Below are positions 1-64,000 of a stretch of 64,000 bases of DNA, in pieces. Positions within the stretch are counted from its first letter, which is position 1. The number at the start of each line of letters is the position of its first letter. This DNA is from Micractinium sp. NFX-FRZ (taxonomy: Eukaryota > Chlorophyta > Trebouxiophyceae > Chlorellales > Chlorellaceae), in assembly GCA_029339195.1 (NCBI GenBank), contig JAPTJF010000186.1:45994-109993 (forward strand), in the 5' to 3' direction. A program made the position numbers and the translations under genes. The notes below the pieces were generated by a model. That model saw only the letters and a program-made list of their open reading frames with translations. It was not told the DNA's origin and searched no databases.

Positions 1-3000
1 GGCGCCGCGTGGCTGGAAACCTCCATGCAAAAGGGGTGCTTTGACGTGAGAAAGGGGGGGGTGGGGCGCAGGCGGGGGAAGGGGGTTTGGTGAAGCTGGT
101 AGGGAGGCATAGAGGCAGAGGGTGTTGGGATGTGGGAGAGGGAGGGGACCATTGAGGGAGGGGGGAGGTGTGCATGCCTACGCCTCCCAGCCCAGCTCGC
201 AGTGCTGTGCTGTGCCACGCTGTGCCGTGCTGTGCAGGCGATGCTCACCAGGCTCCCCTGTGGCCCGCCCCCTCACGTGCTGCCCCCAGCCTTTTAAGTT
301 TGCTTGCTCATGCTGAGGGCCCCCCTCTCTTCTTATTTTCCTCACCTCCGCTCCTCTGGCCTGCAGGGTGACGACGGCAGATACGAGGGCTACAGTACCA
401 TCAAGTTTTCGTGAGTGCCCCTGTACCGCTGTACTGCCGCCGCTGTACTGCCGCTGCAGCGCATGGCAGTTCACGTCAATGCCCGGGGCAGGCATATCGC
501 TGTGCTGGGGGGGGCCTTCCCCTAGTGCATGTTTCACCTGCCTTCCATTCTCCTCCCCATCGCCTTGTTTGGGCGCTTTGTTGATAAGAGCATGCAATTT
601 GTTGCCCTGGGCAAAGCTGCAGGGCCGGTGCCCGCACATCTAACTTTCATACTCGAATCTTTTTGCAGGTGTGTGGACGGCAAGACGGAGAGTGTGTCGA
701 TCTATGCCAGCGGCAACCTGCTGGGGCGGGAGGCCTGCCCCTGGCCCATGATCCTGCCGGGCAGCGACGGATACGACCCAGCCTTCGACTTCACAAACCA
801 GGTGCGTATATTATATGATTGCATGGCATGCCTCTTGGCGACGCCACTGACTCGCTGCTCACGCATCTGGGTCGGTAGGGCCAGCGCTGTTGGTGGCATG
901 GTACTGTGCACATGCTGCTGGGCTGCTTGTTGGTACCATTATGCGGCCCTGTCGCCGTACCATTTGGCCCTGTTGGCCCCCTCCCCCTTCGCTCGACCTC
1001 ACCTTCCTTCTCTCTTTCCTCCCCGCTTTCAGACCGCCCCGCCGGCCGCGCCCCCCACCCCGGCCCTCCCCCCCGCCGCCGCCACCCTGGACGACTGCCT
1101 GGCAGCTTCCGGCATCGAATTCGTGGACGGCTCGAATCCCAAGGCCCTGGCGCAGGTGGGGGGGGGCCCAAGGACACAAGTTTCGGCTGCCTTGGACGCC
1201 GCTCGCTCCCAAAATATTCCAGCTGTCGCCTCAGGAATGTTGACATTTGAATTCCTGCCCCCCACCCCCCGCCTCCTCCTGCACAGGCGTCCCTCGTGTG
1301 GAACAAGCTGAACACCACCACCCCGGCAGCGGTGGCCTACCCAGCGGACGAGCGGCAGGTGGCGGCGGCGGTGCTGTGTGCGCGGGATGCCGGCGTCAAG
1401 CCGGTGCCACGGTGAGTGCGGCTGGGGGTGGGTGCACGGTCCAAGGGTGGTGCTGGAAGCATTGCCGGCCAGCCGGGGTGTGGTGGGATGTATTCTCGGC
1501 GTTGGGGACAGGGGCTGAGGCGGGGGTGGGCTGGAGGCAGCGGCACGTACCCTGCCAGATCAGCAGTGCCCACTGACATCCCTTAGCTTTCTCAGCCATC
1601 ACGGCAGCTTGCGCCTCTCAGCCGTAGCCCACAACCCCCCTGTGTGACTGCCGCCTCTGGTCCTTCGATCCCAGCCTGCCACATGGCATCCCTGCTTGAT
1701 CGCTGTGCCTGCTGCAATCCCAATAGCGTGCCTGCTGCAAGCCCTGCTGCCCCACGACGTGCCTGCTGTGCCCGCTGTGCAGGAGCGGCGGCCACAGCTA
1801 CATGGGCTACTCGGTCATGCCTGGCCAGCTCACAGTAGACCTGAAGTACATGAGCAGTACCACGGTGGCAGCCGACGGCAAGACGGCTGTCGTGCAGGCG
1901 GGCTCGCGCCTGGGACAGGTGGGTAACACTGTCCCAGCACCCCCTCCCCACTGCTTCCCACCCCCCGACCTCCTGCGCCCCTCCCCAATGCTGCCGCGCC
2001 GCCATCCCCACTGCCCCCCCGTCTCCCATGCCCAGCTGTACTACAGCGTGTTTCAAGTCGCTGTACACCTCCCGTTGTACTGCCCCCTGTGCCTGTGCCT
2101 GAGCGCAGCTGTATTACAACGTGTACAACCAGACGGGCGGCGCCAAGGCGGCCGTTGGCGGCACCTGCCCCCCCGTGGGCGCCGGCGGGCTGCTGACGGG
2201 CGGCGGCATCGGCTACCTGACCCGCCAGTACGGGCTGGCCTGCGACCAAGTGACCGCCCTCAAAATGGTGAGTATGGTGGGTGATTCAATCGAGGCGGGT
2301 AGCAGTGAGGGATTGTGGTGGGGCCAGCTAAACCTACCAACTCAATCAGCGCCCTCCCTGCCGTTCCCGCCGTCCGGCTCAATCGCTAGCACCAGCTCTT
2401 GACACTCCAGACCGCACACCGCCCCTTTCTTTCCTGTTCCCTGTTGCACCCACACCAGGTGGATGCAAAGGGCGCCCTCCTCACCGCCGATTCGACCCAG
2501 AACAGCGACCTACTGGCGGCGTACTGTGGAGGAGGTGGCGGCAACTTTGGTGCGGCGGGGCGATGTTTTCTGTTGTCTTTGTTCTTTTTGGTTTTCTGTG
2601 TGTGTGCGGACTGGGACAGGGAGCGCCGGGAGGGAGGGGCTTGCTGCCTGGGCAGCGCAGGGGGCCAGAGTTAAGGCAGAGGTGGGCAGGGGCCCCTGGC
2701 GCAGGGGCGGCAGCTGGGAACCGCTGTGGGTTTAGGAACCGCGCAGCCTGTGCTTGCCTGTCCCCCCGTCTCCCCCTCTGCTCGCTCCCCATCCCCCTTT
2801 CCAGCGTCCCCGCTGAGCGCATGAAGTTCAAACCATTATCCCACTCACGCCTCCTGCGCCCCTCCACTGTGTGATGCATCATGGTCATGCATGCGTGCCT
2901 TCCAATCATTTGGTGCGCTTGCCTCATAGTGCCTCACAGTACCTCACTGCACCTCATTGTACCTCATTTGTATCGTACAGGTATCATCACGGAGTACACA

Positions 3001-6000
3001 ATTAAGCTGGTTGAGGTGCCGGCCAAGCTGACCCTGGCAGACTTCAAGATTGGTGCGTGGCTGTGCTGTGCCGCCCGTGCTGCGCCGTGCTGTGCCTGTC
3101 GTGCATGAATGTAGTGATGGGCAGGTGTAGGGATGGCGGCAAGGGGTCAGCCTGACCCTGGTGCGTGCTGTGGTCCTGCTATGCTGCGACTCAAGCTCAA
3201 GGGGCGGCAGGGAATCCTGGGGATGCTTGGGCAGCGGTGGGCGCTGTGGCTGTACAGACCTGTGTGACCTGTGGCGCTCGGGCTGGGTGGACGGCAGCGC
3301 CTGGCTGGCCCCCTCTCTGGGTGCACGAACAGGTCCCTTCTGCCCCCTCTCGCGCCCCCGACATGCCACTTCTCCCCTACCCCTGACCCACACACACACC
3401 CCGCAGTCAAGGCCCAGGCGCTCGCGTTCCTGCAGTTCATGCAGGCCAGCTGGGTGCAGAGCCTGGACCCGCGGGTGAGTGCACCTCCCTTTGATTTATG
3501 CATTACTCGCACTTTTTCCCACTATTCTTAGAACTAAAAATGATTGGGCTGCGCGTCATACGGTAAGCGTGGAGGCCAGCTGGGTGAAGAGCCTGCACCC
3601 GCGGGTGAGTGCGCCCCTTCAATCTTATTTGATAAACCATATCAACTAAAAATGACTGGGCTGCAGCCTTATGGAGGTCATGCTGAGCGGCCGGTTGTAG
3701 TGCCGCCGCAAGTTTTGCCACTGTACGCCTTGCCTCTCGGTGCCCTGGTCAAAGGACTGAGGCGGGCCTGCTTGCTCACCAGCACAAGCCGTGGCCGAGT
3801 CACGACTTGCAACTGTGTGCGTTACTGCAGATTGGCATGTTCCTCAACACCGACAGCGACGGCGTGCAAGTGCAGGCGCAGTTCACGGTGGGTTGTGGGT
3901 GAAACGTGGCCTGGGCGGGGTAGGACCGGGGCGGGGCAGGGCAGGGAGGGGCAGGCAGGAGGATGGCGGGTCAGGGCAGGGCAGGGCACGGCGGGCCGGG
4001 CGAGGAGGGCCGGGGGATGGCGGCCCTTTTCAGCCCCGGCGGGCGGAAGGGGACCCGGGGTGCCAGTGCAGTTGAGAGTCACGCCGGTGGGCAATGCGTG
4101 ACAGGGCGTGCACGCGGTGGCACAAGCTCTGTCTGTGGGGCCAGGGAGGGCGGGGCGGGAGGGCGGACCGGCACAGTCGACGGAGGGTGCAGGCTGGCAG
4201 CGTGGGCGGCTGGGACTTGAGCAGCGTGTGCACTGCGTGGGGCCCCACAGGGCACACTGGGAGGGCATGCAAGGGCAGGTGCAGGGCGGGGCAGCTGGCT
4301 GCAGGGCTGGATGGCGACGGTGGGCCGGGTCAGGTAGGGGGCGGGGAGGGCAGGGTGTGCGAGCGGGCGGGCCTCCGCCCTGCGGCCACCAACCCCACGC
4401 TCGGCCACCTTACCCCACACCACACCACACCACCTGCTTCCATTTAACGATGTGATTGCTTCTGGTTCTTCCTTGTGCAGGGCCCCAAGGCGGAGCTGCA
4501 GGCGCTGCTGGAGGCGGACGGCGTGCTGGGCGGCAAGTGGACGCTCACCCGCCCGGCAAGCCTGACAGAGATGCCCTGGATCGACGCCATCATCGCTAAG
4601 TCAGGTGAGAACAGTAACAGTACAGTACTACGCTGGCGTACTGCTTGAGGATCACAAGCCGATGTGTTACAACATGGCGGAGGGCTTGCCGGACAGATAC
4701 ACAGCCCTGCCACTCTTCCATCTGCCCTTCCATCTTTTCTTTCTCTTCCAATGCCCGCAGACTTTGAGTCAATCATCAAGAAGCCGGAGGACATGTTGAA
4801 CATAGAGGCGATGGAGGCCACCGGCAGGTGCGCGCCGCATCGGGCTTCCAAAGAGAGCGCGGCTACTAAGCTGGGGCCGGCGCCCTTCATCGCCCCGCGG
4901 ATCAGCAAAGGGGCAGCAGCTGCCCCTTCCTCTCCTTGCCATCTGAGCGTGTAGTGTCATGTGTCGTGTGCTGCCGCCGGGAGTACTTCAAGATGAAGAA
5001 GAGCTACCTGGTGATGGACCCTCCTACATGATTTGCCTGTCCGCCCCTTGCCACGTCTACCTCCTACTGTATCAATTTCGGGACATGTTGCCAATCTGTG
5101 CTGCCGCAGGGACTGCTTCAAGATGACGAGCTACCTGGTGATGGCGCCACCTAAATGATCGGCCCGCCCTCTCTTTATCGTCCTCACATATTTCACTCCA
5201 CCCCCGCGCTCTTCCAGGGATTACTTCAAGATGAAGAGCTACCTGGTGATGGAGCCGCTGCCGGACGCGGCCCTGCGGGCGCTGCTGGCGTGGGAGCCGA
5301 GCACGGAGAGCCTGGGGGCAGACGGCGGCGGCTTCATCGAGATTGGGGTGCTCGGACCCAAGGTGTGTGGGTGGGGTGGGCAGGGTGTGGGGAGGAGGGA
5401 GGTGTGGGTGGTGGGGCGAGCATGCATCTGGCGTGAGGGAGAAATAACCTTCGTTCTCGGAGGGGTTTGGGTGGGTATGCAAGACGACGGGCAGTTGCAG
5501 CAGCTTCATCGAGATCGGGGTGCTCGGAGCCAAGGTGTGTGGGGAGGGTCAGAGGGTGGAGGGGACAGACCTCTGGGTGTGGGGGAGGCAAAAGATTGGT
5601 TGCAGCAGGGGTGGGGGTGGGAGGGGTGCAAGCGCCAAATGCATATTCTTTGCGGGGCATGCGCGATGCGTGGCACAGAGGCGGTGGCAGTGCGTGCCCC
5701 CGTGACTGGCACAGGGCCTACCAGGCTTGCCAGAGCTTGTACCATCCTGCCCACCCTTTTGTACGGCCTTCCTCGGAAACTCCCCCACTTCCCGCCCCTA
5801 CCCCCATGCCCGCAGAGCGCGGTGGCAGCGGTGCCCGCCAACGCCACTGGCTACGCCCACCGCTCTGCCCTGTACTACATCCAGTACGGCTCCGAGTGGC
5901 AGAGCAGCAAGTACAGCAGCAAGGCGTTTGCCTTGGAGGACGGGCTGCAGCGGCAGATGGACCCCTTCCTCGAGCCGCAGCTGGTGGGTGCGCGCTGTGC

Positions 6001-11756: not shown

Positions 11757-13412
11757 ATGGACATGTCGCGCGCCCTGGCCTGCACGGCTCTCTTTGCCGC
11801 CCTGCTGCTGTCAAGCGGTGAGTCTGTATGGGATGCGTCATCCAAAAGGCCCCTCTTCCGACAGCTAGCCCCGCTTGTGGCTTGGCAGGCATTTGCCGCT
11901 CCCGCCCTGCGGCGCCACCGACCGACTCAGCGACTGGCGGCAGCGGCAAGTGGCATGCCCCTGGCAGCAGCAGCAGCGCCAGAGGCTGCTTGCCCCAACA
12001 CAAGTAGCCTCGGCCCGCTGTGCTGTCCCGTGCATCAGCACATGGTCAGCGCTCCCCCTTGCCCCCGCCCTTTGACCCTGCCCTCGCCCCGCCTGCCGCA
12101 GGCGCCTGGCTGGCGGCAGCTGCCCAACCCGCTTGCGTGGAAGATGCAGAGAACTGGGGCACCGGAAGCGGGTGCTACACCTGCCAGGGAGACGTGTGCG
12201 TGGAATGCTGGGGCGGCTACAGCCTGAACGCCGAGGGGCACTGTGTGAAGGTGGGTTGGGCGGGCCAGGGAGCTGGGTGCTGCGGGGCCGGGGTGTGGAG
12301 GGTACAGGCGGTGCGCGCACAGTTGCAGCCGGCACGCGCGCTGTGCCTGCGCCCGCCTCTTGCAGCAGCAACCACCATCCCTCACTCCCTCCCGCCGCCG
12401 ACGCGCCCCCCAAACCCGGCCGTCCACCCCCCATGCAGTGCTCCTCCCCCATCCGCACCGGGGCTCTGGAAGACGAGGATGTGGAGGTGGTGTGTGATGC
12501 CTGTGACCCCGAAGACCCCACCTTCTGCCTCTCCTGCTGGGCAGCCGGCCGCTTCACCCCCGCCCTGTATGCCACGGCAGAGGGCCTGTGCAGCAAGTGC
12601 GAGGACGAGGCGTGCGGCAGCTGCGCCAACCTGAACGGCACATGGTGGGTGGGCGGGTGGGCGGGTGGGTGGGGAAGCTGCGCCGACCTGAACGGCACAT
12701 GGTGGGTGGGCGGGTGGGTTTGTGGGTGGGTGGGCAGGTGGGTGGGTGGGGCCAGCACGCTGGCAGATTGCACATGCCGCCACTCATCTCGACTCCAGGC
12801 ATGGGCTCCCGCCCTGCTGCTTGCAGAGGAATGTTCAGGATTGTAGGCAAGTGCTCGCACCCCGCCCTGCACCGTCCAGCCCCTGGGGCCCTTTGGACAC
12901 ACCAACTGTGCCCACCCCCAATGACTGTCGATCCTCCGTCACGCACCTTCCAACTCTGTGCAGCACCGGCTGCGCCGCTGGCAAGGGCTTTGTTACCGAC
13001 GCTGACGGTCGCACCTCCTGCCAGGCGTGCGAAGACGACAGCTGCACCGTGTGCGACGGAGACGTGTCTGTGTGCACCGCCTGCCACAGCAAGAGCCACA
13101 GCTACGCCGACCCCGCTTCAGGACGCTGCCTTCCGGTGAATGAGCTGTGCTGCGCATGCTGTGCTGTGCTGTGCTGCGCTGCGCCGCGCTGGGCTGCCAA
13201 GAGCCACAGCTGCCCCGACCTCGCCACGAGACGCTGCCTTCCAGACACCACATGCCCTTTGCACCTGCCCCAACCTGCAGTGTCCCAAGGGCTGCGCGGC
13301 ATGCAGCGCCAGCACCTCTGGGCAGGGCGTGGTGTGTGAGGAGTGTTTTGTGGGGTTCGAGATGCAGCGGCGCAAGTGCGTGCCTGCTCCACATGCCGAG
13401 GTGGCCGAATGA
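11757..13412 (+). CDS. Small secreted protein built of CxxC modules
   Basis: Exons 11757-11817, 12102-12250, 12439-12644, 12964-13135 and 13281-13412 give 239 aa. The N-terminus is a signal peptide (MDMSRALACTALFAALLLSSG). The mature protein is a chain of short CxxC units: CYTCQGDVCVEC, CDACDPEDPTFCLSC, CSKCEDEACGSC, CQACEDDSCTVC, CPKGCAAC and CEEC. The pattern is like furin-type, EGF-like or variant-surface-protein Cys repeats, probably disulfide-bonded outside the cell. No transmembrane segment or GPI-like tail, so it is probably released or wall-bound. Two introns carry echoes of exon edges (12676-12715 and 13195-13245). A tiny extra exon between 13135 and 13281 cannot be excluded. Function unknown. 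Confidence 0.7.
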
Positions 13413-14763
13413 TTCATCTGGGATGCACGGGCTTTGAGCGAACCGGAAGCCTGCCTCTGCCGAACACTTCGAGCAAGCACCCTTGTTCCGTCCACCTGCC
13501 GCCCATCATCGCCCGTGCCTCCTCGCCTCCCCCCACCCGCCTCTGCACACTGCCCCTCCCCCCACCCTCCCCACCACCCGCCTCTTCGACCCTTTCCAGA
13601 GCTATTACGGCGCCGGTACTGCTCTTCTTTTCCCCCTCCACATGATTCTTGACTCTTGATTCGTCATTCCTTGATTCTTACTATCCCCTGCTCGACCTTT
13701 TTACCTGCTGATGCCATTTCTGGCAGACACCGATTGACAGTGTGGCTGTCCGCCTCCCCGCACTTGACAACAGAGGTGACCCTGGCTGGCCGCACAAGAG
13801 GAGCAGGGGTGGTGGGTGCCTGGCCGGTGCCAACTGGGATTCTGGTGCCATGACACTGACAAAGGGGAACTTGCCCCCTCAGCCCCCAACCCCCAAAAGG
13901 GGGCAGGGCTTTGGGGGGTGGCGCTGCCCAACCTGCCTAGCTCCCCCGCCCTCCTGTCCCCTCCACCCACCTCTGCTTGGTTCGAGGGAGCAGGCTGCTT
14001 GGCACAGGCTGCTTACATGGCACGAGCAGGGTGCAAGTGTGCCGGCAAGGACGGCGCACAGCATGCAATCGGTTCGTCAGCGGGGGTGTTGATGGTTATC
14101 ATGTGCAGGGGTACCAGAGAGGGCTGTACAAGAGAAGGAGTGCACCGGAGAGGCTCAGAAATGTGTGTGCAGGCGTACTGTGGGAGCGTGCAGGCATAAC
14201 AGGCGCAGCTGTTCCCATGTCCCCCATGATTCGCGCAGCACACAGGTGTGCGCCGCCACATGTGCGGCCCAGACAAGAGGCCGCTGACAGCGAGGGGTTG
14301 TCAACAGAAGGAGGGCGGCATCGGTGGGGCGCCAGAGCGTCAGTGCAGGCGCCACACGAGCCAAAGATCCTGGGACTGAGCTGAGGCCCTCCCTGAGCCA
14401 CGGAAATACAAAACTGGGGCTGACCTGGATGCAAAAAACCATCAGCAAAAAACTGGAGCTGGGCTGGGTGCCAGCTGTACTTCAAACTGAAAACATAGTC
14501 CTGCTGGCTCCGTGGACTTGAAATGTAATGATGATGATGATGCACATAGTATTGGCTGGCTCAAGCCGTGAGTCGCTGGCCAGGGCTCACTGAGCTCTGG
14601 CCGTGCACAGACCGTTCATCACGCTGCCAGCAGCGCGCCATGTCTCAGCGCGCTGCCAGCTCAGCACGCTGCCAGCAGCGCACGGAGCTCAGTGCACTCC
14701 ACCGCTCAGCGCTCCCGCCAGCTCACCACACTGCCAGGTCAGCACGCCGCCAGCTCAGCACGC
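13413..14763. other. Convergent intergenic region
   Basis: Lies between the CxxC-module gene (+) and acetyl-CoA synthetase (-). The plus strand has TGTAA near 14522 and the minus strand has TGTAA at 14013-14017, so the two 3' UTRs may overlap. Positions 14625-14763 hold a degenerate repeat around CCAGCTCAGCACGCTG. No gene recognised. Confidence 0.5.
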
Positions 14764-14775
14764 TCACTTGCCGCG
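14625..14775. repeat. Degenerate CAGCTCAGCACGCTGC minisatellite
   Basis: The core CTCAGCACGCTGCCAG recurs several times with changes just past the end of acetyl-CoA synthetase. A related array lies at 16225-16350, inside an intron of the same gene. Confidence 0.6.
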
Positions 14776-17700
14776 CATCTCCAGCAGGACCTGCATGGCA
14801 CGAGGGATGTGCACAGAGGGCACAGGTATGTTGCACATCTGTCTCTGGATTCTTCTTCAGGCCTGCCCGCCTGCTGCACAACACCTCGCGTGCAGTGCAC
14901 CAGCCAGCGAGCCAGCCAGCCAGCGAGCCAGCCAGACTTTGCTCCCGGCAACAGCAGCCAGCAACAGCGCGCTCCATCCAGCAATCGTAAGGGAGGGGAG
15001 GGGACCCACCGTCACAATGCCGGGATCTGCCAGGGTGGAAATGTCGCCCAGCTGGTCCTCGGCGTGCGCCGCAATCTTGCGCAGCACGCGGCGCATGATC
15101 TTGCCTGCGGAAGGGGTGGAGGCAGGGTGGGGGGAGGGGAGAGGGGAGGTGGTGTGGCCGGAGGGAAAGGGTGGGGCGGTAAGTGGCAGCGCAGAGCAGT
15201 GAAGGGCTATCCTGCGCAGCGCACGGCGCATGCTCTTGCCTCAGCGAGGGGGTGTGCACAAGAGGTGTGTTGTGTGTGGTGTGGTGTGGATGAAGTGCTT
15301 GCACCGGAGCTTGAGTGCTTGGGTGAGGGCGACGGGGAGAGAGACGGCAAGGGTAACTGAGGAGGGCCTGACTGGCTGCCGCTCTGCCAGCTGCATTCTG
15401 TGCTCCACCACACAGCGCGCAGCGGGCAGAGCGTGCTTGGCCAGCAGCCCTGCTGCCCACCCACCTACACCCCTCGCCAGAGCTCCGATCCACTTAGCTC
15501 CACCTGCCGGGCCTGACCCCCCAAGCCGACAACGGCGAAGCCCAGCAGCCCGGTCAAGAGGCCAAGCACCTCTCCCGCTTTGAAAGTCGACTTGTACCCC
15601 CCGCCCCTCCCCTGGCGGTGCAGGCTATCCAGATCGAAAGAAAAAGGGCCTCACCGGAGCGAGTCTTGGGCAGGCCGGGGGCCCAGTGGATGACATCAGG
15701 TGTGGCAATGGGACCAATGGCCTTGCGCACCTGTGCACACAGGAAAGGGGACAAGGCTTGTTCTCACCACCCTGACTGTACGTGACGCCAGGGCACACCC
15801 GCAATGCAGCCCAAACATGGAGCTGCCAGGCACAACCTGGTTGGTCAGCTGCTTGCACACCCTGCCGCCAGCTGGGCACACCGTCACAAAATGCAACACA
15901 AAATGCAACACAAAATGCAGCAGCCCCACCTGGTTGATCAGCTGCTTGCGCACGCTCTCGGCCGGCGGATAGTCGTAGCCCTCCATCAGGGTGACAAAGG
16001 CGTAGATGGCCTGCAGATTGGGCGTATTGGGCGTCCAATTGATTTAGACCACTCGTTGGGTTGCGATTAATAGGCAACATGCCCCCCTCCATCAGGGTGA
16101 CAAACGCGTAGATGGCCTGTGCAAGAAAAAGGCGATTGAATAAAAACAGTGTAAGCGTTGTGAGAACGTGCACGGCGAGGGTTTGAGGGGCCGTGCCGCC
16201 GCTGAATCGGCACATCATGGTGCCTGCTCTGCCTGCTCAGCACCCACGGTCCCTTTACAAGGCTCCCTCCACCGGCACCCCGTCCGCCTGCACGCCAGCT
16301 CAGCGCCTGCAGCCTGCCAGCTCAGCGCCCTCCTGCCAGCTCAGCACCCACCTGGCCCTTCACCGGGTCCTCCACCGGCACGACCGCCGCCTGCATGGGG
16401 CAGCAGGCAAAGCAGTTGGCCAAGGGAGGAACGCTCGTTCACCAGCACTCACCTGCAGTCCTCCTCGGCCCACGCCCTCGTGCTGTAGCATTCTCCGCCC
16501 CTTCTCTCGGCCAAGAACAATGCAACACAGCTGCTGATGCTCACCGCCAGTGCGCTCCTCACCCTGCCGCCACCCCCCTAACCGACTCAAACCAAAGCAT
16601 GTGACCTCTCAAATCCAAGGCACAGGCCCTGGCCACCGTAAGAAATGCTTGGTCAACAAAACTGCCACTACTGCTCACCTCTGCGCACAGGTGGTGCCCC
16701 ACCAGGGCGCTCTCCACCTCGGCGGTACCGATGCGGTGCCCACTCACATTCATCACGTCATCCACACGCCCCATGATCCAGTAGTACCTGCAGTAGCACA
16801 TGCAGGCAAGGTTGGGGCATGGGAAGCTGGGGTCGGTGTGCTAGCCTCCTGCCGCCTGCCTGTGGGTAAAACGGGCCCAGCGACCCTGCGCATGACGCCC
16901 AACCAGCGGGGTTTGCTGCACCTGTGTGTCGCGTGTTCCTGCAGCGCCAGCCTGGCAGGGGCGTGCAGTACCATGGCAGTGCCCTCTGATGGTGGTTGGC
17001 ACAACAACCCACTGTTCACCCAGCAGCAGCAAACAAATACAACACATCTCCTGCTGAAACAGAGCACGGCACTCAGTCCTACTTAAAACACCCCTCACCC
17101 ATCCTCGTCGCGGCGGGCGCCATCTCCCGTGAAGTAGTACCCCTTGTACTGCAGGCGGGACGGATGGAAGCTGATTGAGATGGGGCATTCCCAACGGCTT
17201 CATGGAGCGCATGCCGGTTGAAGGTGGCCCTGCTTGGGTGTACGCAATCGACCCATCAGCCCCCCTTCCTCTGCTGCTGTGTTCGACATCGAATGGAAAG
17301 GAACACTCACGATGTTGAAGTAGGCCTGCTCGAAGCGCGGGTGATCCCCCGCCAAGGTGCGGAACATGGCGGGCCAGGGGCGCTTCATCACCAGGTAGCT
17401 GTAGGGGGGTTGGGAATGAGGGTGGGGAGAGAGCATGTGTGTGTGAGCGTACAGAGGTGGGTAGTCATGAGGAGTGCTGGAGCCCAGGCGGGCCAGCTCC
17501 GCTTCCACGTTCTGTTGGTGCCAGCCCGCACCGGGCACTCACCCCTGGCCCACCCCCTCCACTTCGTTGCCCTTGTCGTCCAGAATGGCCGGCTCCACTC
17601 CAAAGAAGGGCAGCGTGGCTGCAGGGGCATTCATATAGGAAAATGAAAAGGGTGTGCCGATGTGAATCAACAGGGGATGGCGGGCCGCGCGCCATGTAAA

Positions 17701-20700
17701 GGCAGGGTGGCTGCAGGGAAGAAAGTGGAAACACAAAGGGTGTCGTGAAGACAGAGAGAACAAACGGTGTACCGTGTGTAAATCGAACAGGCAGGGCGGC
17801 TGCCCAGATAGGGGGAGGTGTGATGCAGGAAGGGGAGGAGGGTTCAAACAGAGGGGTAAAAGGCGGGGGGAGCTGGGGGCGGGGGGAGGCGGGGCGGGCA
17901 AGTTTAGCGCGCACCCGGCCCCTGTCCAAGGAAGGGCGTGCCAACCTGTAGCCCACCTGTACATCAGCAAGCAGCACCCCCCTCAAGCTTCGCCACACGT
18001 GCCGGTACCTTGGCGTGCAGCACCTGGGATGGGAGCCTCGGGATTGGAGCGCCCCCCTCAAGCTTTAGCACACACGCAGCGCCAGCACCCCCGCCTGGCC
18101 TGCCCACGCGCTCGCCCCACCCCACCCCACCCCACCCCACCTGACCCTGGCTTGGTCGGGATGGCGCCCGGCAGCGGGGAGATCATGGCGGAGCCGGTCT
18201 GCAAACGAAATGAATCGGAATTGAAACGAATAATTGGACGGGTTGGGTTTTGGGTCAAGAAGGGACCCCACCAAACAACGTCGAGATCAAAACGGAGCCG
18301 GTCGGCACTTGAATCAATTATAATCGACTTTGATGCGCATTGGGTTTGGGTTTGGGTACGGGTTTTGGGGATGAATGTGCCCAACTGACGCGAGGCCATG
18401 CCTCCCCCCAAAAGGGGGCCACCGCTGCAGCCAGGGTGTCGCGACATCCCCCTCAAGCACAGCACAGCGTGTCATGCACAGCTTCCTGCACGGCGCTTCC
18501 TGTGCACCCGCCAGACAGGCATGCACATCGTGCCTGCCTCATCCCATTGCCTTGCCTCATGCCTTGCGTCCACCCCCACAGCCACACAAACTCTCTGAAG
18601 GGCTGCCTGCCTGCCCAGCAGACAGGCATGATGTGCCTCATCCCAAGCCTTGACCTCCACGCGGCTTGCACCCCGGCCCCGGCCCCCTCAACGCGGCCTG
18701 CCCGCCAGACAGGTCAGCCTAGGCATGTTGTAACAACAACGGTCCTCACACCTTGCCTCACCTCTGTCTGCCACCATGTGTCCACCACCGCCACGTTTGA
18801 GCCGCCCACCACCTGCCCAGGGGGGTGGTTGCCACCAGTGAAGGGGAGCGTGAGCAGTGTGTTTGGTCACCAGAGTGGCGAGAGCCAGGGGTCTGGTTTG
18901 CCAGCAATGCGGGCAGATTGAGGAGCGGTTAGATCACCACCAACACGGGAAGAAGATGAAGGGGTTGTGCAGCGGGCAGCGGCGCACATGCAAAGCAGAG
19001 GGGGAGGGGTAGAAGGGGCGACCTGCGGGGAGACCAGCGGGCACTGCCAATCGCCCCATGCCTGCAAACCGTGTCCAGCCAGCCACTGTGCCAGCGCCCG
19101 ACAGCTGCAGCGCGCGCACGTGGCCTTGCATGCTACCGCTGCTGCTGACTGTGTGGTTACGTAATCATGGGTGGGACCGCACCTTGTAGTACCACAGCCA
19201 GGCCTCTGGGTTGATGGGCTCCCCCACCGTGGCCAGGATGCGGATTGTGTCGCGCCTGCAATGGGTGGGGGGGTGGCATCGTCGGCACCAACAGGTGGCC
19301 AGCAAGCCGATCGACCGACCATGTGTATTACCTTGTTCATGCCCCCCACCCATCCCGCCCAGCGTGCGCCTCGTGGTGTGCCTGCCACGTGCCGGCGTTT
19401 TTTCAAAGAGAGATGGCCATTTGAATCGTGGGGCTATGTTTGAGGAGGGTGCAAAGGTTGGCCACCTCTGCGACAACCAGCCTCACTCGCTTGTGCTGGT
19501 GCGGTGAACCAGCCACACCCAGTCCATGCGCTGCCAGGCAACACCTCATCCCCTCTCAGTCGCTGACTCACTGAGTCGGTCAATGAGTCATCCCCACTCA
19601 CTCTTGTGCTGTGCAGCATCTCATCCTCACGTACTGGCACTGTGTGGCCCATCGGCCCCACTCACTTGCGCTGCGGGACAAGCCGGCCCCACTCACTTCC
19701 TCTACACGGCCAATCGGCCCCACTCACTTGTGCTGCGTGACAAAGTAGTCGCCGCGCGACATGAGCGTGCGGATGAGCGTGGGGGCCGTGTAGAAGATGG
19801 TCACGCCGTACTTGTCGCACACCTGCGGTGGGGAGGGGACAGAACCACCACTCCACAACTTCAGCCGGACACTTTCCGCATGGGGGCGTGAGGCGCCAGG
19901 TACCGTGCTGGCCGTGCCTGCTGCTGCACCTCTTGCTGCTGTGCCTCTTGCTGCTGCGCCTCCTGCTGCAGTGCCTCCTACTGCGGAGCCTGCTGCTGCG
20001 GAGCCTCCCGCTGCTGTGGCACCCCCCTCGGACTGCACGTGTGTTCCAGTCCCACCTCCCAGCAGCGTCCGGCATCTGGGAAAGTGGGCACGCCCTCAAA
20101 CAGGATCTGGGTGGCCCCCTCCAGCATGGGCCCAAATGTGACGTACGTGTGCCCTGCAGTTTGCAGCAGCAACGGAAGGGAGGGAGGAGAGCGGCATGCC
20201 CAGCAGGGTCAATTTTCGTCAGCAACGGTGGCGCCTTCAGCAGCGGGCCAGGCGTGACAACAGGTGCTGCCTGCGGCACAAGGGAGGGCTTGCAGCTGAT
20301 GGGATGCGGCCCTGGGACGTGGTGGGGAAAGCGTTCCTTTTATCTGTATTGATGCAGGGGCGGGGGACTAGCTGGCACCATGCGTGCATACCTATCCCCT
20401 GCAACAAACCGTCATCCCGCTGCGGCCAACTCCGCATGGGGTGGGCACTCCATCCCTGATGCGCATGCAAGATCTACTCCTGACACTGTGCTTATTGCCC
20501 AGACCACTGTGCTGACCTCTGAACCCTGCCCCAACTGCCACACTCTTCCCCTTGCACCCTTCCCTGCCAGCATCCGCCCACCTCTGTATCCTTCGATGAC
20601 CACGCATGCATGCTTCCCTCCACGCCTTCCATCTGTACGTGGCGCCCTGCGCCACCCCCCCCTCACCGGTGATCCAGCCGCAGTCGGCGGTGCACCAAAA

Positions 20701-23700
20701 GATGTCCTCCGGCTTGTGGTCAAAACAGTACCTGTGGGTGAAAACAGTACCTGTGGGTCAAAGCAGTACTTGTGGGTCAGAGCAGTAACTGTGGGTCAAA
20801 ACAGTACCTGGGGGCCAGGGGGGCAAGCAAGGATGGACTGGACTTTTTGCTTCCCTGTACCAGCAGCGGTTAGCAGTCGGGTGGCAGCGGGTGGCAAGCA
20901 GCCAAGGTTTGGTCGAGGCAGAACCTGCCGGTGAGCAACACGTAACACTGACTCATGATTTCCTGTGCCAGCACATCAGCCTGCACACTGTGCCACCCAC
21001 TGAAGGGGAGCGGCTGGGATCAAGGGGGGCAGGGCCTACCCACACACCCACCCACCCACCTGAAGGTGGCGGCGGCGCCACACATGTAGCCGGCGGTGGT
21101 GTGCAGCACGCCCTTGGGCTTGCCGGTGGAGCCAGAGGTGTAGAGCTGCGGGGTGGGCGGAGGGGCGGGCAGGGGTGTGTGGTGTGAGGGTGGGGGAGGG
21201 AGGGAAGGAACGCACTGCACTCATCATGGGTTTGCCACTGAAGCCAGAGATGCAGAGCTGTGGGGTGGGTGGAGGGAAGAGGCAATGGAAAGTTGAGATC
21301 CAGGTGGTTGGAAGCTGCCGCAACGCTGCGGTGTCAGCCCGCGTGCAGCTGCGGCCCTGGCTCCCCAACCGGACAGCACAGCACAACACAGCACAGCACA
21401 GTGCACCAAATCCCCAAGCGCGCCTGCCTGCCTATCCACCTCACCTGCTACCTAGGCCCTCTGCTCCCCGTTGCACCGCCCTGCACCCCTGGGGCAGCTT
21501 TGCACTGCACCGCACGACACTGTGCCCAGGCAGCGCAAAGGAACCAGGGAAGGTTCGAGCCCCTGCCCGCATGTAGGCGGGTGGGTCTGCAAGCACAGCA
21601 TCGACAGCTCTCACCCTGGACAGCGGGTCCTCCGCCCCCTCTAACCACAGCAGGCACAGCAGGCACAGCAGCAGCGGCTTTCACCCAGAACAGCGGGTCC
21701 TCCTCCTACCTTCACCCACAGCAGGCAGCAGGCACGGCAGCGGCGGCTCTCACCCGGAACAGCGGGTCCTCCGCCTCCACACCACAGCGTGCACAGCAGG
21801 CACAGCAGCGACGGCTCTCACCCTGAACAGCGGGTCCTCCGCCCCCCTCCACACCACGTCGCACTCCTTGGGCTGCCCCGCCACCGCATCCTGCCACCAC
21901 ACGTCTCGACCCTCCTGCATCGCAATGTCTTCCCGGGCGGCGCCCGACCCAGTGTGGTCGTACACCAGCACACGGCCAGGCACCGGCTCTCCCTTGATGT
22001 ACTCCAGGGCCTGCAGTTCCGGGTTAGCAAGAGGGGGCCGGAGGGGCGGGGAAAGAAGGGGTGCCAATGTCGAAGGTGCAGTCCAGGGCCCGCGGTTCCG
22101 AGTAAAGAAGGGGAGGAGGGAAGAGGGGTACCAGTTTCAGAAGGAGGGGGGAGGAGAGGGGTGCCAGTTTCAGAGAATGGGGCAGGAAAGGCGAGGGACA
22201 CTGCATGTTGCGACGCCTCGGCTCCCTCTTGATGTAATCCAGGGCCTGCGGCACCCAGGATGCCAGAAGAAAGGGGAAGGAGACGGGTGCCGGTTTTAGG
22301 AGCGGGGGGAGGAGAGGGGTGCCGGTTTCAGGAGCCAGGGGAGAGAGGGGTGCCGGTTGCAGGTGAGGAGGCTGCCGCATCTCAGGCTGCCCAGGTGGAG
22401 GGCATGAGCCGTGACAACAATTCTTTACCTCACGCACCGCCCACCTCGTCCACAATCATCTTGAGCTCAATCGTCTTTGGGCCGCGCTTGACCGCGGAGC
22501 AGGTGAGCACGGCCTTGGGTTGAGAATCGTCGATGCGCCCCGCCAGGCTCTCGGAAGAGAAGCCGGCAAATACCACGGAAAAGACGGCACCGATGCGGGC
22601 ACAGGCGAGCTGCGCACCGGGGAGGGGGCGGGGAAGGAAGGGCAGAGGGGGGAGAGAAGCTTGAGTGAGGTGGGGACGCCGACAACACCTCAGAAACGAC
22701 GGCGCCGATGCGGGCGCAGGCGAGCTGCAGGGGGGCGGGGGCGGGGGCGGGACAGACGGGTGGGTGAGAGACACTCGCTCTGAAACTTCTCCCTCTGACT
22801 CACCATGGCGATGGGCAGCTCCGGGATCATGGGCATGTAGATGGTGACTGCGTCGTCCGGCCCCACCCCCTCGCTCTTCAGGTAGTTGGCCAGCTGCGGG
22901 GAGGGAGGGGAGGGGAGGGGAGGGGAGGGTTCAGGTGCAGGGAAGCGGTCAGGTGACAGGCAGCACAACGGCAGAGGCAGGGAAAGAGCGTTTGTGAGCA
23001 ATGGCAAGGTGTTGAGGAAAAAAGGATGCAGCGGCGGCGTCGGGGCCCCCCACCCCTCGCTCTACAAGTGGCTGGCCATCTGAGAGGAGTGAACGAGGAA
23101 TGGGCCGGGATAGACAAGGGGACTGGAGGAACAGAGAGGGCACACAACTGGGTGGGTGGGTGGGTGGGTGAGCTGGACAATGCAGGTAGCTGGCATGCAG
23201 ACGTAGGGGGGCTGTTTGCCCAACGTGCTTGCAGCGTGGCCCCTGGCGGATGGGCACGGCATGCACTACAGCCCCACCCCCGGCGCTGCATGCCCAGCAG
23301 AGCGCACAGCATGCACAGCACACACAGCACGCACAGCACAGCCAGCGCGCCCACCTGGCACACGCTCTCCAGCATCTCCTTGTAGGTCACCTGCGGGGGG
23401 TGATGACGGGAGGCAGTGGCGCCCTTCCTCAGCTTAGCGGCTGTGCTGTGCTGTGCTGTGCTGTGCTGTGCTGTGCTGTGCTGTGCTGTGCGGCACGAGT
23501 TATGCACAAGTGGTGGAGCGCCCTCCTCACTTCCTGAGCTCAGCTGCCACACGGAAGGTAAGTGGGGTGGTGCCCTCCCTGAGTTCAGCGGCTGCACGCA
23601 GTAAAGCAGGACTGGTGGGAGCGGCCCCTTTGTCACCGGCCACAAAGGCAGTGCACCTCGAGCATTCCAAGCTGATCACAGCCCCGGCTCCAAAGGGCTC

Positions 23701-25052
23701 AAGCCTCTCCTTCATTGCTCTCCATACGCCACGCATGACTGTGGACAACAAACACAGCGCTCGCCGTGCGCCCCTCCTCCCCATAATACGCAGTTGAGTA
23801 GCAGTACAAACAACATCGCTCAACGTGCGCCCCTCCTCAGTTGAGTAGCAGTTGAGATAGCAGTTGGCAGTTGAGTAGGCAGTTGAGTACAGAGAAGCGC
23901 TCACCGTGCGCCCCTCCTCCCCCGAGTCGTTTGGCTCAAACAGGAAGCAGGCCTTGTCGCCCCGCCCCGCCTCCACGTGGCGGTCCAGGCAGTTGTAGCA
24001 CTGCAGGGTGACAACCGGAAACATGTCAGTCGAAAGAGAAGGGTGGGCAGCGGGGCGGGTGGCAGGCTGCGCCATGACGCGCGCTGCAGGGCAGCATGCA
24101 TGCCGCGCTGCGCTGCGCTGCGCTGCCGAGGCGACACCGGGGAAGGCGGGGCGCTGCGGGTGGCGACAGCACGATCAGCAGGGGCGAGCGCGCAGGCGCC
24201 CCGGCCTGCCTGCCTGCCTGCAGCTGCCGCTGGGAGGCAGCCCAGCGCACAAGCACTGCCAGCCACAGGCCCGCCCCCGGGGCACTTTACTAGATCCGGG
24301 CGGCTGGCGGGGCGGCGAGAGGCGGGGCAGGGCGGGGCCGCCACTCACCACGTTGGTCTCTGCCCCGTTGAAGAAGGAGACGTGGATCCCTCCCTTATCC
24401 AGGTCGAAATTCCATCTGGTTGGGCGGCAGTTTCAGGGACAAGCGGGGTTGAGGCTTGGACAGGGGAGCCAGGAAGCCAGGTGGCATGAGCGGGAGGCGG
24501 GCAGGGACCTTCCGACTCAGGTTCTCCACACGGCAGATGGCCGGCTGCGGCTGGGGCTGGTCGGGGGTGGCACGCACATCTGCACAGGCAAGGCTGCTCC
24601 AGCAGGCGGCACGGCGCCAACGAGCAGCATCCCTTCATGAATACAAATAAAGCTGCCCAAAGCGGTCTCTTTGCGCTGCCAGCCCTGGCGGAAGGAAGGG
24701 TGGCGGCGGACCGGCGGGCACCCCCAGGGCACCCACTTGGAGAAGGCCTCGCCGGTCTCCCAGGGTTTGTTGAACTTGAAGTCCTTCATAAACTCGCCCC
24801 AGAAGCCCTGCATGCGGCGCGCGGGAGGCAGCGGGGGGCAACTCCGACCGAGGCTGGGTGCCGCCCTGTCGGGCGTGCATTGGACGGCCGGCGTTTGCGC
24901 CTCGGCGACATTTTGAGGCTCGCGCGTTACGGTTTTCGGCCCACCTCGGGATCCTTCAGGCTCCTCTCATACATCTCCCGATACTGCTCCATAGAGCGCA
25001 CGTGTGAGCCCTCCACCACATGCTTGGGAGGCTGGAAGACGTGGTCCGTCAT
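14764..25052 (-). CDS. ACS: Acetyl-CoA synthetase (AMP-forming)
   Basis: Converts acetate, ATP and CoA to acetyl-CoA. Exons in coding order: 25052-24945, 24807-24722, 24415-24349, 24000-23905, 23390-23355, 22893-22804, 22609-22445, 22010-21822, 21145-21060, 20731-20667, 20153-20056, 19822-19728, 19255-19183, 18812-18762, 18198-18141, 17618-17543, 17398-17311, 17148-17099, 16787-16679, 16390-16352, 16010-15930, 15730-15655, 15104-15010, 14790-14764. They total 667 aa, close to the usual 650. Motifs: ATP loop [12 protein letters not shown] (about 280-291), TWWQTETG (about 430), [27 protein letters not shown], and PKTRSGKIMRR with the catalytic, acetylatable Lys near 629. Two small departures: EDPLFR before the ATP loop (usually a hydrophobic residue), and TETGS for TETGG. 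The first exon follows an apparent acceptor (ttttag just before the ATG), so a 5' UTR intron or an upstream targeting exon is possible. No peroxisomal tripeptide at the C-terminus. Confidence 0.95.
16225..16350. repeat. CCAGCTCAGCGCC-type minisatellite in an ACS intron
   Basis: The motif (C)CTGCCAGCTCAGCRCC recurs about five times directly before the 39-bp exon at 16352-16390. It is related to the array at 14625-14775. Confidence 0.55.
20715..20815 (-). repeat. Tandem repeat of a splice-acceptor edge in ACS
   Basis: About five copies of a 19-bp unit, AAAACAGTACCTGTGGGTC on the plus strand. The first copy contains the exon edge and acceptor of the exon 20667-20731. Each copy therefore presents a possible AG acceptor. 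Confidence 0.75.
21600..21850 (-). repeat. Four tandem copies of an exon 3' edge plus splice donor in ACS
   Basis: Plus-strand units of roughly 60-75 bp, each with ctctcaccctg(g/a)acagcgggtcctccgcc or a close variant, start near 21608, 21680, 21749 and 21815. The last is the true end of the exon 21822-22010. Each unit encodes EDPLF and keeps a donor-like site, and GCACAGCAGGC spacers lie between units. Confidence 0.8.
23440..23492. repeat. (TGTGC)n microsatellite
   Basis: About ten perfect copies of the pentamer TGTGC in an ACS intron. Shorter or imperfect runs of the same pentamer lie at 205-240, 3060-3100, 6009-6080, 13145-13180 and 41865-41900. Confidence 0.8.
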
Positions 25053-31263: not shown

Positions 31264-31295
<32 letters not shown>

Positions 31296-43201: not shown

Positions 43202-45277
43202 ATGGGAAGACGAATTCAGTTCGCGTTCGCGCTTGCTGTGCTCTCCGCTGCCGTGTTCGTGCACAGTGAGGCGGCCCGGTGAGTGCAGCCCTGGCCGCCC
43301 CAAAGCAGCTTGGCGCGCTGAAAAGGTCCCCTAATGCCGGCTAGATGGGCGCACAGAATTGGAGAGAGGTCTCCCCTGCGGGCAGCGGGCGGCGGCGGCG
43401 GCGTGAAACCCCCCCTGCCCGGCACGCGCAGCTCCTGCCCTGCAACTGAAGGCAGGAGCCCACAAACGCTTGGCATCAGTAGCAACCATCCTGAACAGCC
43501 CTCCTGCCACTTACTTCGCCTGCAGGCCGCAGCAGCAGAGGGCCTCTCGCCGGCAACTCGCCCCCGCCCCTGCCCCGGCAATCGGCGAGGATGCACCCGC
43601 TCCCGCCCCAGCCCCCGACGCTGATGAGCCACCTGCCCCGGTGCCCAGCCCTGTCAGTGACAGCGAGCAGCAGAAGCAGCAGCAGCAGCGGCAGAGGCGG
43701 AGGGAGGCTGCTCGTTGGGCAGCGCAGACGGCGCCTGTGCCGCCCGACTGGGTGCAGCTGGGTGAAGTGGAGGACGGCTGGCTGGAAGGGCACGAGGCCA
43801 ACGTAGAGGCTGTGGCAGCGCTGAATGCGCAGGTGGGGAAACAAGGCTGTCGGCATGTGTGGACCCTCGGTTAGGTTTGGGGTATGCTGGTTGCTTGGGT
43901 TGTGCGCTCCTTGCCTCCCCCCCTGCAACCAGCTCTGGCTTGGCGGCAGCCCCGCCCCGCCCTGGGGTTGAGCCCCCACCCCCCGCACCGCACCGCATCC
44001 GCGCCCCCTCGGCCCTGCAACTCACCCCAATGCATGCCACGCGCAATCCAGGGGGCAGCTGGATACCACGCCGTATCATGCGCGCGCCAGCGCCGACGCG
44101 GCCACCGCCCAGCTCCCAACACCGCCCTCCTGAACCCACCGCACCCTCCCACACTTGCTTTGCGGCCTGCAAACTTCCCTTGTGCAGGAGCCACCTGCGC
44201 AGCTCGACTTTATTATGTATGGAGACAGCATCACGGCCTGGCACTCGCTGGTCACCTGGCCCTGGGACGCGGCGTTTGGCGACCTGGCAGCGCTCCCGCT
44301 GGGTATGAGGGGGTCCACGGTGGAGAGCCTGGCCTGGCGCATGATCCAGGTAATACTTTAGTTTTGCTCTCTTTGTTGTCGCGGTTCCTGGTAGCTGGCC
44401 TGGGCAACGGTGGAGGCAGCCTGGCCTGGCGCATGATCCACGTAACCCCTTTGAAGCTAAGCTGTTGACCGATCGGTCAACAGCAAGTCATGGGCACAAA
44501 GGCTGACTGCCCTCTTCCGCAAGGGGGGGTGGCTGCCAGCGGCGCCCCCTCCCCCTGCACTGTGCACCGCATGGCCACCTGACCACACTCCAAGCACAAA
44601 CACGGATCATCTCTCGTCTCCTCCGTGCCTGATCCTCTGAGCAGGGCGGCGAGCTGCCGGCGGCGCCCCCCCGCGTGGTGCTGTTTGAGATCGGCATAAA
44701 CAATGTGTATAAAGGGCTGGAGCCGCCGGCCGAGCGGCTGGACTGGCTGCTGGGATGGGTGAATGCCACCTGGGGGGCAGACACAAAGGTGAGAGCAGGG
44801 GCGGGTGTAAGGGGATGGCGAGGGTGCTTGCTCTTGTAGCAATGTGTGCAGTGCACGTATGTTGTGGTTGTATAAATAGTGCAGAAGATGGCAAGAGCTT
44901 GTGAGCCGAAGCACCTGTCGCCTCCTTGCGCATGTTCTCCTGCCGGCTCCTCTTTCCCGCCAACGGGGGGGTGCTGACGTGGCGCCGAGAGATGCCTCAT
45001 CACCCTGCTGCAGGTTGCCCTGCTGGCGCTGCTCCCCACGACCGAGGCTGACGTGGCGCCTACCAACCAGCGCTATGCTGAGCTGGCGGCACGCAGGGGG
45101 GTGCCCCTGCTGACGTGCGGTCAAAGGTTGGATCCAACAGATGGAGAGCTCTTCCCTGATGGGCTTCACCCCGCAAGGGCCGGGCAGGAGCTCATTTTGG
45201 CCTGCCTGCGTGCCGCGCTGAGCCCTTGGCTGCGCGAGGCGCCGGCGGCAGGCACGCCGCCAGCAAGGTCGCTGTGA
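43202..45277 (+). CDS. Secreted SGNH/GDSL-type hydrolase
   Basis: Exons 43202-43278, 43526-43832, 44188-44349, 44645-44788 and 45014-45277 give 317 aa. The N-terminal signal peptide (FAFALAVLSAAVFVHS) is followed by a Pro/Ala-rich and Gln-rich linker (residues 27-85, with APAPAP runs), typical of cell-wall proteins. The hydrolase core has block I MYGDSITAWHS (Ser about 142), block III EIGINN (Asn about 202) and block V DGLHP (His about 282). These are the catalytic Ser, the oxyanion Asn and the catalytic His of SGNH esterases or acyl-hydrolases. The spacing resembles the PAF-acetylhydrolase gamma branch. Probably an extracellular or wall esterase; the substrate (polysaccharide acetyl groups or lipid) cannot be told from sequence. 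Confidence 0.85.
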
Positions 45278-51734: not shown

Positions 51735-51766
<32 letters not shown>

Positions 51767-53328: not shown

Positions 53329-53333
53329 TTACA
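53329..53333 (-). promoter_or_regulatory. Putative poly(A) signal TGTAA (minus strand)
   Basis: First minus-strand TGTAA noticed after the F-box/WD40 stop, about 365 bp downstream. Confidence 0.4.
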
Positions 53334-53604: not shown

Positions 53605-53609
53605 TGTAA
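53605..53609 (+). promoter_or_regulatory. Putative poly(A) signal TGTAA
   Basis: Plus-strand signal about 745 bp after the LRR gene stop. If used, the transcript reaches to within 90 bp of the F-box/WD40 stop. Confidence 0.35.
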
Positions 53610-53695
53610 TGCGGCCTGTTGATCACAAAACGACGCGCACCTTGCACGGGAGGAAAGCGACACCGGTGCCTACATGCTGTGCCTGCTGAGCTCCC

Positions 53696-62543: not shown

Positions 62544-64000
62544 ATGCCCCGCCAGCCGGAGGCAGATGGGGAGGAGGCAGAGACGCCACGTCGGCGGCGC
62601 CAGCGGGCCGTGTCCCCCTGCCCCTCCGGAGGCTCCTCCGATGCCGCAGCTCCCGCAGCCACTGCAGCCACAGCACCACCTGTTGAGCAGCCACTGCCCG
62701 GCAGCGGCGACGCCCCACGTCCCAGCGCCAAGCGGCAGCGTGGGAGCGCTGTAGACGGTGCAGACGCAGGCGACGGCGAAGGCGAGGGGGCAGTCTGCGC
62801 TGTGCTGCCCTTGTCGCCAGGGGCGGGCGCGGCTCTCCAAGCCAGCGTTAGCGGCTCCCCGTTTGCTGCAGCAGCCAGGCAGCATGCATGCCAGCCGGCA
62901 GCAGTAGCAGCTGCTGTCGGTGCAGCAGCTGCAGGAGCAGCGGTGGCAACGGGAGCAGCAGCGGGACACGCTTCAGCATCGCTGCCCGTGAGCTTTATGA
63001 ACACTGAGCAGGCTCAGGCAGCAGCGGCTGGGGCACACTGCAGCCAGCTGGCTGCACCCCTGCCGCAGTCACAGCCAGAGCAGCAGCAGCAGCAGCAGCA
63101 GCAGTCAGCAGCAGCAGCAGGACAGCTGCAGGTGCCTGAGGGGCCCACACATATGGACCTTGATGCCTGCGACCCGCAGCAGTCTCAGCAGGCGCAGCAC
63201 GCGCCCCAGCCAGCGGTGCCAGCGCAGCAGCTGCAGCCGCAGCAGGCGCAGCCGCACCAGTTGGACCACCGCCCGCCGCTGCCACTGGGTGCCGCCGCCG
63301 CTTTGAAACACGAGCGCCAGCAGCAGCAGCAGCAGCAGCAGGTGTCGGCTGCCACCGCACAGGGAGCAGGCGAGGCGGCAGGGGTGGCGACACGGTTGGG
63401 GGGCGGTGCGGCGCTGTCCCGCACCGCCTCACAGCTGTCTCTCAATCAGCCAGCTGGCTCAGGTGCCTCCCGCCTGACCAGCCTAACTGATGCGGAAATA
63501 CTGCTGGCACTCAGCTCCGCACCGGAAGCACCCACAGCAGACACAGCAGCGGCGCAGCAGCCAGGCGGCGGCGGGGAGCGCGAGCAGGGCGGCTTCGGCG
63601 GGCCGGCGCCGCGCTCTGCCGCGGCTGTGGCGGCCGCCGTGGCGGCTGCTGCAGCGGAGCACGAGGCGGCGGAGCAGGCAGCAATGGCAGCGGCCGCGGC
63701 AGCGCTCCTCCCCCCTCCGCCGCCCCGCATCTCAACTGCCCGCACAACTTCCAGCCCGCTTCTGGCCCAGCGGGCAGCAGCAGCCGCAGCAGCAGCTGCG
63801 GCGGCTTCATTTGCGGCAGCACTGGCGGTGGAGGGAGGCGGCGAGACGCCACGTGCAGCCAGCACGCCGCGCGCCGGCGGTACGCCCCGCGGTGCCGGCA
63901 CGCCCCGCGGCGCTGGCACACCCAAGGGCAGCCGCACCCCCACTGGGAGCCGGACGCCGAAAGGCAGTCGACGGACGGCGCAGTCGCCGCGTGCAGCGGC
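62544..64000 (+). CDS. Gln/Ala-rich nuclear-type protein, 3' partial
   Basis: An uninterrupted frame runs from the ATG at 62544 to the window edge (485 codons). An in-frame TAG lies about 55 bp upstream, which supports this start unless an acceptor near 62537 (cctgcag) is used. Composition is low complexity: poly-Gln runs (near 63075-63120 and 63315-63345) and poly-Ala stretches. Basic clusters (RRRRQR, SAKRQRG) could be nuclear localisation signals. A short helix, SLTDAEILLALSSA, is the most structured piece. The last visible part is a run of GTPRGAGTPRGAGTPKG and SRTPTGSRTPKGSR, basic Thr-Pro-Gly repeats that look like proline-directed phosphorylation or DNA/RNA-binding tails. Perhaps a transcriptional or chromatin protein; any conserved domain lies beyond the window. 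Confidence 0.6.
   Translation, partial: MPRQPEADGEEAETPRRRRQRAVSPCPSGGSSDAAAPAATAATAPPVEQPLPGSGDAPRPSAKRQRGSAVDGADAGDGEGEGAVCAVLPLSPGAGAALQASVSGSPFAAAARQHACQPAAVAAAVGAAAAGAAVATGAAAGHASASLPVSFMNTEQAQAAAAGAHCSQLAAPLPQSQPEQQQQQQQQSAAAAGQLQVPEGPTHMDLDACDPQQSQQAQHAPQPAVPAQQLQPQQAQPHQLDHRPPLPLGAAAALKHERQQQQQQQQVSAATAQGAGEAAGVATRLGGGAALSRTASQLSLNQPAGSGASRLTSLTDAEILLALSSAPEAPTADTAAAQQPGGGGEREQGGFGGPAPRSAAAVAAAVAAAAAEHEAAEQAAMAAAAAALLPPPPPRISTARTTSSPLLAQRAAAAAAAAAAASFAAALAVEGGGETPRAASTPRAGGTPRGAGTPRGAGTPKGSRTPTGSRTPKGSRRTAQSPRAA
63847..63970 (+). repeat. Coding repeat: Thr-Pro-Arg/Lys-Gly units
   Basis: Tandem coding units of 15-18 bp (gccggcacgccccgcggc and similar) encode [GA]GTP[RK]G then SRTP[TK]G. 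About eight units are visible and the run may go on past 64000. Confidence 0.8.

Follow-up and report, generated by a model that had tools for sequence, protein, structure and literature searches.

Single duplications that cross a splice junction are already known. In the potato RdRp gene, a tandem genomic duplication spans an intron-exon boundary (Ma, Lan and Niu 2016, PMC4974935), and a 2012 review presents tandem duplication as the only route of intron gain demonstrated in vivo (PMC3443670). Here we describe exon-edge echoes, copies of an exon edge with its splice site that lie within the adjoining intron, in a 64,000-nucleotide stretch of the green alga Micractinium sp. NFX-FRZ (contig JAPTJF010000186.1, positions 45,994 to 109,993, forward strand). 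This whole stretch is called the window and is numbered from its first letter. In the potato case, the duplicated segment joins the 3′ end of an intron to the 5′ end of an exon and carries the pyrimidine tract and 3′ splice site, as here. However, it is one case that yielded a new intron, whereas the alga has many cases in which the mRNA is apparently unchanged and most spacers between the copies have no detectable homology.

Intron gain of the Rogers type also generates paired splice sites by local duplication. That model duplicates exon sequence containing AGGT and leaves the intron between the copies, whereas in the alga the copy lies inside an existing intron; in the alignments examined, the echoes are within introns and not at intron ends. 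Introners are multi-copy families. They resemble the echoes as a gain of intron-associated sequence, but the spacers tested here are single-copy. The templated insertions made by Pol theta or by microhomology-mediated break-induced replication (MMBIR) are short templated copies at repaired breaks and in this are like the echoes; that class is not known to be anchored at splice junctions. The literature searched (titles and abstract starts, with partial coverage) held no description of genome-wide exon-edge echoes, and the density of the echoes and their splice-site-bounded copies look new. The lengthening of introns and the origin of decoy splice sites are rarely readable in sequence. A constrained source exon provides a ruler for its copy, making birth, decay and splice choice measurable intron by intron. 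If most copies do end at a splice site, this would link a DNA process to splicing signals and inform the old question of intron gain.

All echoes were identified in the DNA sequence of one genome, a 66-Mb assembly of 838 contigs from which we sampled the window and 250 kb elsewhere (314 kb in total). Reference junctions were read by homology in two genes with 22 introns between them. The first, encoding the beta subunit of methylcrotonoyl-CoA carboxylase (MCCB, 25952..33134, + strand), was modelled with 15 exons. Its protein is closest to a contig protein, P0001 (93%), and to Micractinium and Chlorella vulgaris proteins (83-86%), which points to a Chlorellaceae-like alga. It aligns to four relatives (P0001, P0002, P0004 and P0005) with no gaps where the model places junctions, and the echoes are therefore absent from the protein. 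The second gene encodes an acetyl-CoA synthetase-like protein (ACS, 14767..25052, - strand) with a Pfam AMP-binding match under its cutoff; its 5′ part (25052-21060, 9 exons) was read by homology and its 3′ part by a gene finder, with three paralogs compared. Junctions beyond MCCB and the 5′ part of ACS are all predictions of this gene finder, which was trained on those two genes, recovers 22 of the 23 known exons and also calls two echoes as exons. Its predicted consensus is (C/A)AG|GTG(A/G)G for donors and TGCAG|G for acceptors. MCCB, ACS and a kinase are the gene names of the first-pass annotation that were looked at; the kinase match falls below the Pfam cutoff.

Exon-edge echoes in introns are confirmed as a real observation. 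When the window is compared with itself at a score of at least 44, there are 31 direct repeats 100-250 bp apart versus 3 inverted ones, and none at 500-1000 bp; five dinucleotide-shuffled versions contain no such repeats. The 250 kb elsewhere contain 62 direct versus 1 inverted repeat at 50-300 bp, with a peak at 75-150 bp and a density below that of the window. Another 37 direct repeats there form a separate class, spaced 500-1000 bp apart, which the window lacks.

We compared the 50-nt edge of each exon with its own adjoining intron, with 200 shuffled introns and with 200 draws of other introns. In MCCB and ACS, 9/22 donors and 10/22 acceptors score above all 200 shuffled introns (scores of 27 and up), which bears out the proposal of the first-pass annotation that introns here hold copies of adjoining exon edges. 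All 200 draws of other introns are exceeded by 8/22 donors and 11/22 acceptors. Across 40 wrong-side comparisons in the same two genes (40-nt edges), the maximum score is 21, versus at least 27 for the significant edges. Edges taken from other genes produce echoes in 0/256 introns, showing that the copies are local and gene-specific, as had been claimed. The annotation had named two outcomes that would speak against it, namely similarity no higher than in shuffled introns and equal similarity to unrelated exons; both checks were run, and neither outcome holds. Chance and low complexity are ruled out as the source by the shuffles and the other-gene edges. The shuffles, like the simulations described below, presuppose uniform mutation.

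Among 336 exons in the 314 kb, 71 echoes score at least 32 and are located at 60 junctions. The window accounts for 30 of these at 26 junctions, in agreement with the more than 25 cases counted at first pass. Echo density is uneven: 41 echoes occur in the 250 kb elsewhere, and 6 of 20 ten-kb pieces are without any. In 48 of the 71, the echo is 75-175 bp from its edge, in direct order. Exon ends are copied downstream and exon starts upstream, and the second copy of an edge with its splice site is in direct orientation and lies on its source edge's own side, as a junction-spanning tandem duplication would place it.

The echoes differ from the real exons at 304 of 2546 aligned sites (~12%), with rates of 0.098, 0.118 and 0.142 at the three codon positions. 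Synonymous changes make up 104/301, where 25% is the random expectation, and non-synonymous changes 197/301, while 35 of 41 indels are frameshifting. Because the changes are spread over codon positions and the indels break the frame, the echoes are untranslated and drifting. The synonymous share and the frame-breaking indels rule out coding constraint on the echoes. A divergent haplotype or an assembly join is disfavoured, since non-synonymous changes are in the majority (197 of 301) and most indels cause frameshifts.

Decoy splice sites, which the first-pass annotation had expected, are present in the sequence. With the alignment held within 1 nt of the junction, AG is kept in 19/22 acceptor echoes and GT in 17/24 donor echoes. 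The retained AG and an acceptor-like tract in front of the echoes could suggest that the echoes function as decoy or alternative splice sites and are kept by RNA-level selection. We regard this as extremely improbable, given the ~12% differences with frame-breaking indels, the loss of the donor GT in 7/24 and the near absence of echoes from the sister ACS paralogs.

The copies are local and direct, follow the side rule, decay without coding constraint and retain intact decoy sites in the sequence. Mechanistic detail aside, junction-anchored local duplication is probably their general origin. In such a process, DNA around splice junctions would be duplicated over a short range, in direct orientation and with its order preserved, perhaps by replication slippage or break repair. 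A duplication spanning the junction would leave two splice sites, and choice of the one nearest the intact exon would keep the mRNA the same. The extra copy would be tolerated because splicing removes it, and exon definition, in which a short exon is recognised as one unit, may contribute to this tolerance. The inner copy would then become intron and decay neutrally, while selection on the protein would preserve the outer copy. In some echoes the whole unit is copied in tandem, for example in MCCB introns 2 and 8 and ACS intron 8, and the intron part aligns as well in MCCB introns 2, 8 and 12 and ACS introns 7 and 8.

Several results weigh against plain duplication of this kind. Spacer homology at p<=0.05 is found in 12/49 echoes (49 of 54 were taken, the remaining five being outside the length limits of the test) and in 3/13 of those whose exon part is at least 92% identical, whereas in simulation, with each copy diverged by 3-12%, it is recovered in 57-60 of 60 duplicates. 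Spacer match and exon-part identity are not correlated (rho -0.09). Echoes contain 18-78 nt of exon (median 38.5, with 50/54 at or below 58 nt), compared with a median length of 124 nt for the source exons. Such short exon parts argue against plain duplication because random breakpoints in a unit of ~110 bp should give many longer ones. In edge-bounded acceptor echoes, the upstream bases are shared no further than between unrelated acceptors. Finally, a test at threshold 28 finds echoes at 14/256 donor and 21/256 acceptor edges versus 23/416 intron interiors. Many copies comprise just a splice site and ~25-50 nt of exon, so either the copying or its aftermath involves more than a plain tandem duplication that decays uniformly.

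The excess of edges over interiors is method-dependent, because the rates are near-equal at threshold 28 and differ in later tests. With 600-bp flanks and a score of 32, the counts outside the window are 27/414 for edges, 5/414 for the wrong side, 0/414 for random places and 10/414 for intron windows; in the window they are 19/98 for edges, 0/98 for the wrong side and 9/98 for intron windows. A set of 123 non-redundant repeat pairs scoring at least 40 divides into 72 that link an exon or exon edge to an intron, 17 that link intron to intron and 34 that are exon-exon, edge-edge or intergenic. Planted copies, used as a control for these classes, are detected about equally in intron and exon. Among 17 complex repeats with at least 90% identity, 13 are exon-or-edge/intron and 2 intron-only.

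Other settings for spacer homology give 20/54 at p<=0.05 and 12/54 at p<=0.01, the latter with too short a flank that missed at least one homologous spacer (at locus L013). The acceptor echo of MCCB exon 7 start (28595..28637, + strand; real copy 28730-28772) is 43/43 identical with its AG intact, and its spacer homology has p=0.040, 0.083 and 0.056 in three tests, two of them not significant. No spacer homology is detected for the acceptor echo of the ACS exon start at 16010 (16085..16119, - strand), whose exon part is 31/32 identical, or for the donor echo of the exon end at 44349 (44407..44445, + strand), which has a GTAA donor in both copies. For most echoes, a plain tandem duplication followed by uniform decay thus appears to fail. 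The repeated tandem duplication across junctions that the first-pass annotation envisaged is supported in part: some echoes are whole-unit copies, but in most no homology is detected in the spacer.

These spacers, together with a near boundary that is often at the splice junction and a far boundary that varies, raise the possibility of splice-site-anchored copying. An intronic break or stalled end would prime on a splice-site-like motif ~100 nt away (a pyrimidine tract-CAG or a GTG-rich donor), copy 25-50 nt of exon and rejoin, in a Pol theta-like templated insertion or an RNA-templated version of it. We hold this only as a tentative minority explanation. Several spacers without detectable homology despite exon parts that are 96-100% identical, the shortness of the copies and the uniqueness of the tested spacers are in its favour. 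It does not predict the acceptor-like flank: the tract score upstream of edge-bounded acceptor echoes averages 0.65 (n=15), compared with -2.47 for background AG and 2.67 for real acceptors, which is not expected at random break sites. Inverted local templating of the spacers is found in only 2/54 at p<=0.05, and exon middles are copied in 0/81 and 2/81 (score 32). It is likewise rather doubtful that the copying process recognises the splice junction, directly or via motif microhomology, and time and again places a 25-50-nt copy of the exon edge and a splice site ~110 bp into the intron, creating decoy junctions by a route distinct from ordinary tandem duplication.

The acceptor-like flank instead favours whole-unit tandem duplications that are old: their spacers would have decayed, and the exon part of the echo would have been refreshed from the exon under constraint, by gene conversion or by repeated slippage. 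The sharp boundary and short copy, in contrast, favour splice-anchored copying. Refreshment would explain why exon-part identity is independent of spacer homology, why AG is mostly kept and why tract composition is partly kept before the echoes. It also fits the 28.6-kb echo, which shares a serine codon with the real exon where the four relatives have alanine; this echo must therefore be young or recently copied over. Neutral conversion, however, should keep the spacers alike too, and there is no direct trace of conversion tracts; homology past the far end of the copied part is at chance level (2/54 at p<=0.05). We consider such refreshment unlikely.

A search of ten spacers against the 66-Mb assembly, which passes over very common words, matches only the spacers themselves, plus two weak matches to their own neighbourhood. 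This sustains the earlier statement that the copies are neither introners nor transposons. The introns here are partly low-complexity, as are many of the repeat pairs, which would be consistent with an origin in mobile elements, whether introners or target-duplicating transposons, or in chance and low complexity; the single-copy spacers, the other-gene edges and the shuffles make this origin barely credible. A TTCGAATC motif in one spacer resembled a tRNA arm, but an origin from non-coding RNA or tRNA was rejected, as no Rfam match reaches the gathering score and the window contains no tRNA.

The first-pass annotation further proposed that duplication feeds intron growth and may be a route to intron gain or sliding. 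In MCCB and ACS, introns with echoes measure 476 bp versus 261 bp for those without, at 110 bp per echo, which suggests that echoes add to intron growth. In the gene-finder set the lengths are 398 and 264 bp, and size bias alone predicts 366 bp. The greater length of echo-bearing introns stands, but size bias explains most of the difference in this set. A role of echoes in intron gain or sliding is only conjectural, also for the extra introns of the window ACS copy.

The ACS paralogs (the window copy, L029, L030 and L031) differ strongly in the number and position of their introns, which reflects intron gain and/or loss. The internal introns of L029 are short (141-228 bp), and two or three exons of the window copy can correspond to one exon in L029, which lacks, for example, the window introns of 563 and 522 bp. 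At a score of 26, one of 56 edges in the three paralogs bears an echo (0/16, 1/20 and 0/20), compared with 6/30 in the 3′ part of the window copy, one of them beside a doubtful predicted exon. From this contrast we infer that echoes arise locus by locus.

Further echoes in MCCB are all on the + strand. The donor echo of exon 2 end (26378..26424; real 26277-26326) scores 59, with 41/50 in the exon part and a 51-bp spacer. Exon 3, which starts at 26929, has a first acceptor echo at 26696..26758 with CAG intact and a second at 26818..26865, which repeats the first as a whole tandem unit of ~112 bp. A donor echo of exon 7 end (real 28793-28836) lies at 28944..28988, and two of exon 8 end (real 29188-29235) at 29326..29518, with GTGAGC in both, the first being a whole-unit tandem copy. 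Acceptor echoes are found for the starts of exon 13 (31723..31813; real copy 31940-32036), where the unit is mostly intronic, exon 14 (32383..32432; real copy 32491-32540), where AG has become AA, and exon 16 (33764..33801; other copy 33835-33874), which is mostly intron with 11 nt of exon.

On the - strand, the ACS exon end at 23905 (GAGGAGGGGCGCACG) has two donor echoes at 23756..23838, in which the donor GT has become GC and TT. The acceptor echo of exon start 22609 (22675..22746) retains its CAG and is one of the two called as exons by the gene finder. Exon end 21822 is followed by an array of donor echoes (21589..21785), a whole-unit tandem with a period of ~70 bp, and exon start 21145 has an acceptor echo at 21227..21276.

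Elsewhere in the window, on the + strand, exon start 5218 has two acceptor echoes (4967..5148), and donor echoes accompany exon ends 5362 (5497..5584; real copy 5325-5416 including an intron part) and 13135 (13198..13242). Gene-finder positions 3440-3485 (35 nt exon and 11 nt intron) recur in the intron at 3570..3615. At locus L006 (5235-5583), one intron holds a copy of a downstream stretch resembling the next exon, splice sites included, followed almost directly by a copy of the end of the previous exon. This is the order expected for a duplicated unit spanning the whole intron and both exon edges, but the offsets of 153 and 242 differ and thus do not reflect a single clean event. Three window stretches recur across the genome: ~70 bp at 48027-48097 with at least 41 near-identical matches (91-99%), several of them at contig ends, ~47 bp at 14497-14547 with at least 20 near-identical matches, and a GCTGTGCCGT-type tandem array at 5980-6100 with at least 48 related matches.

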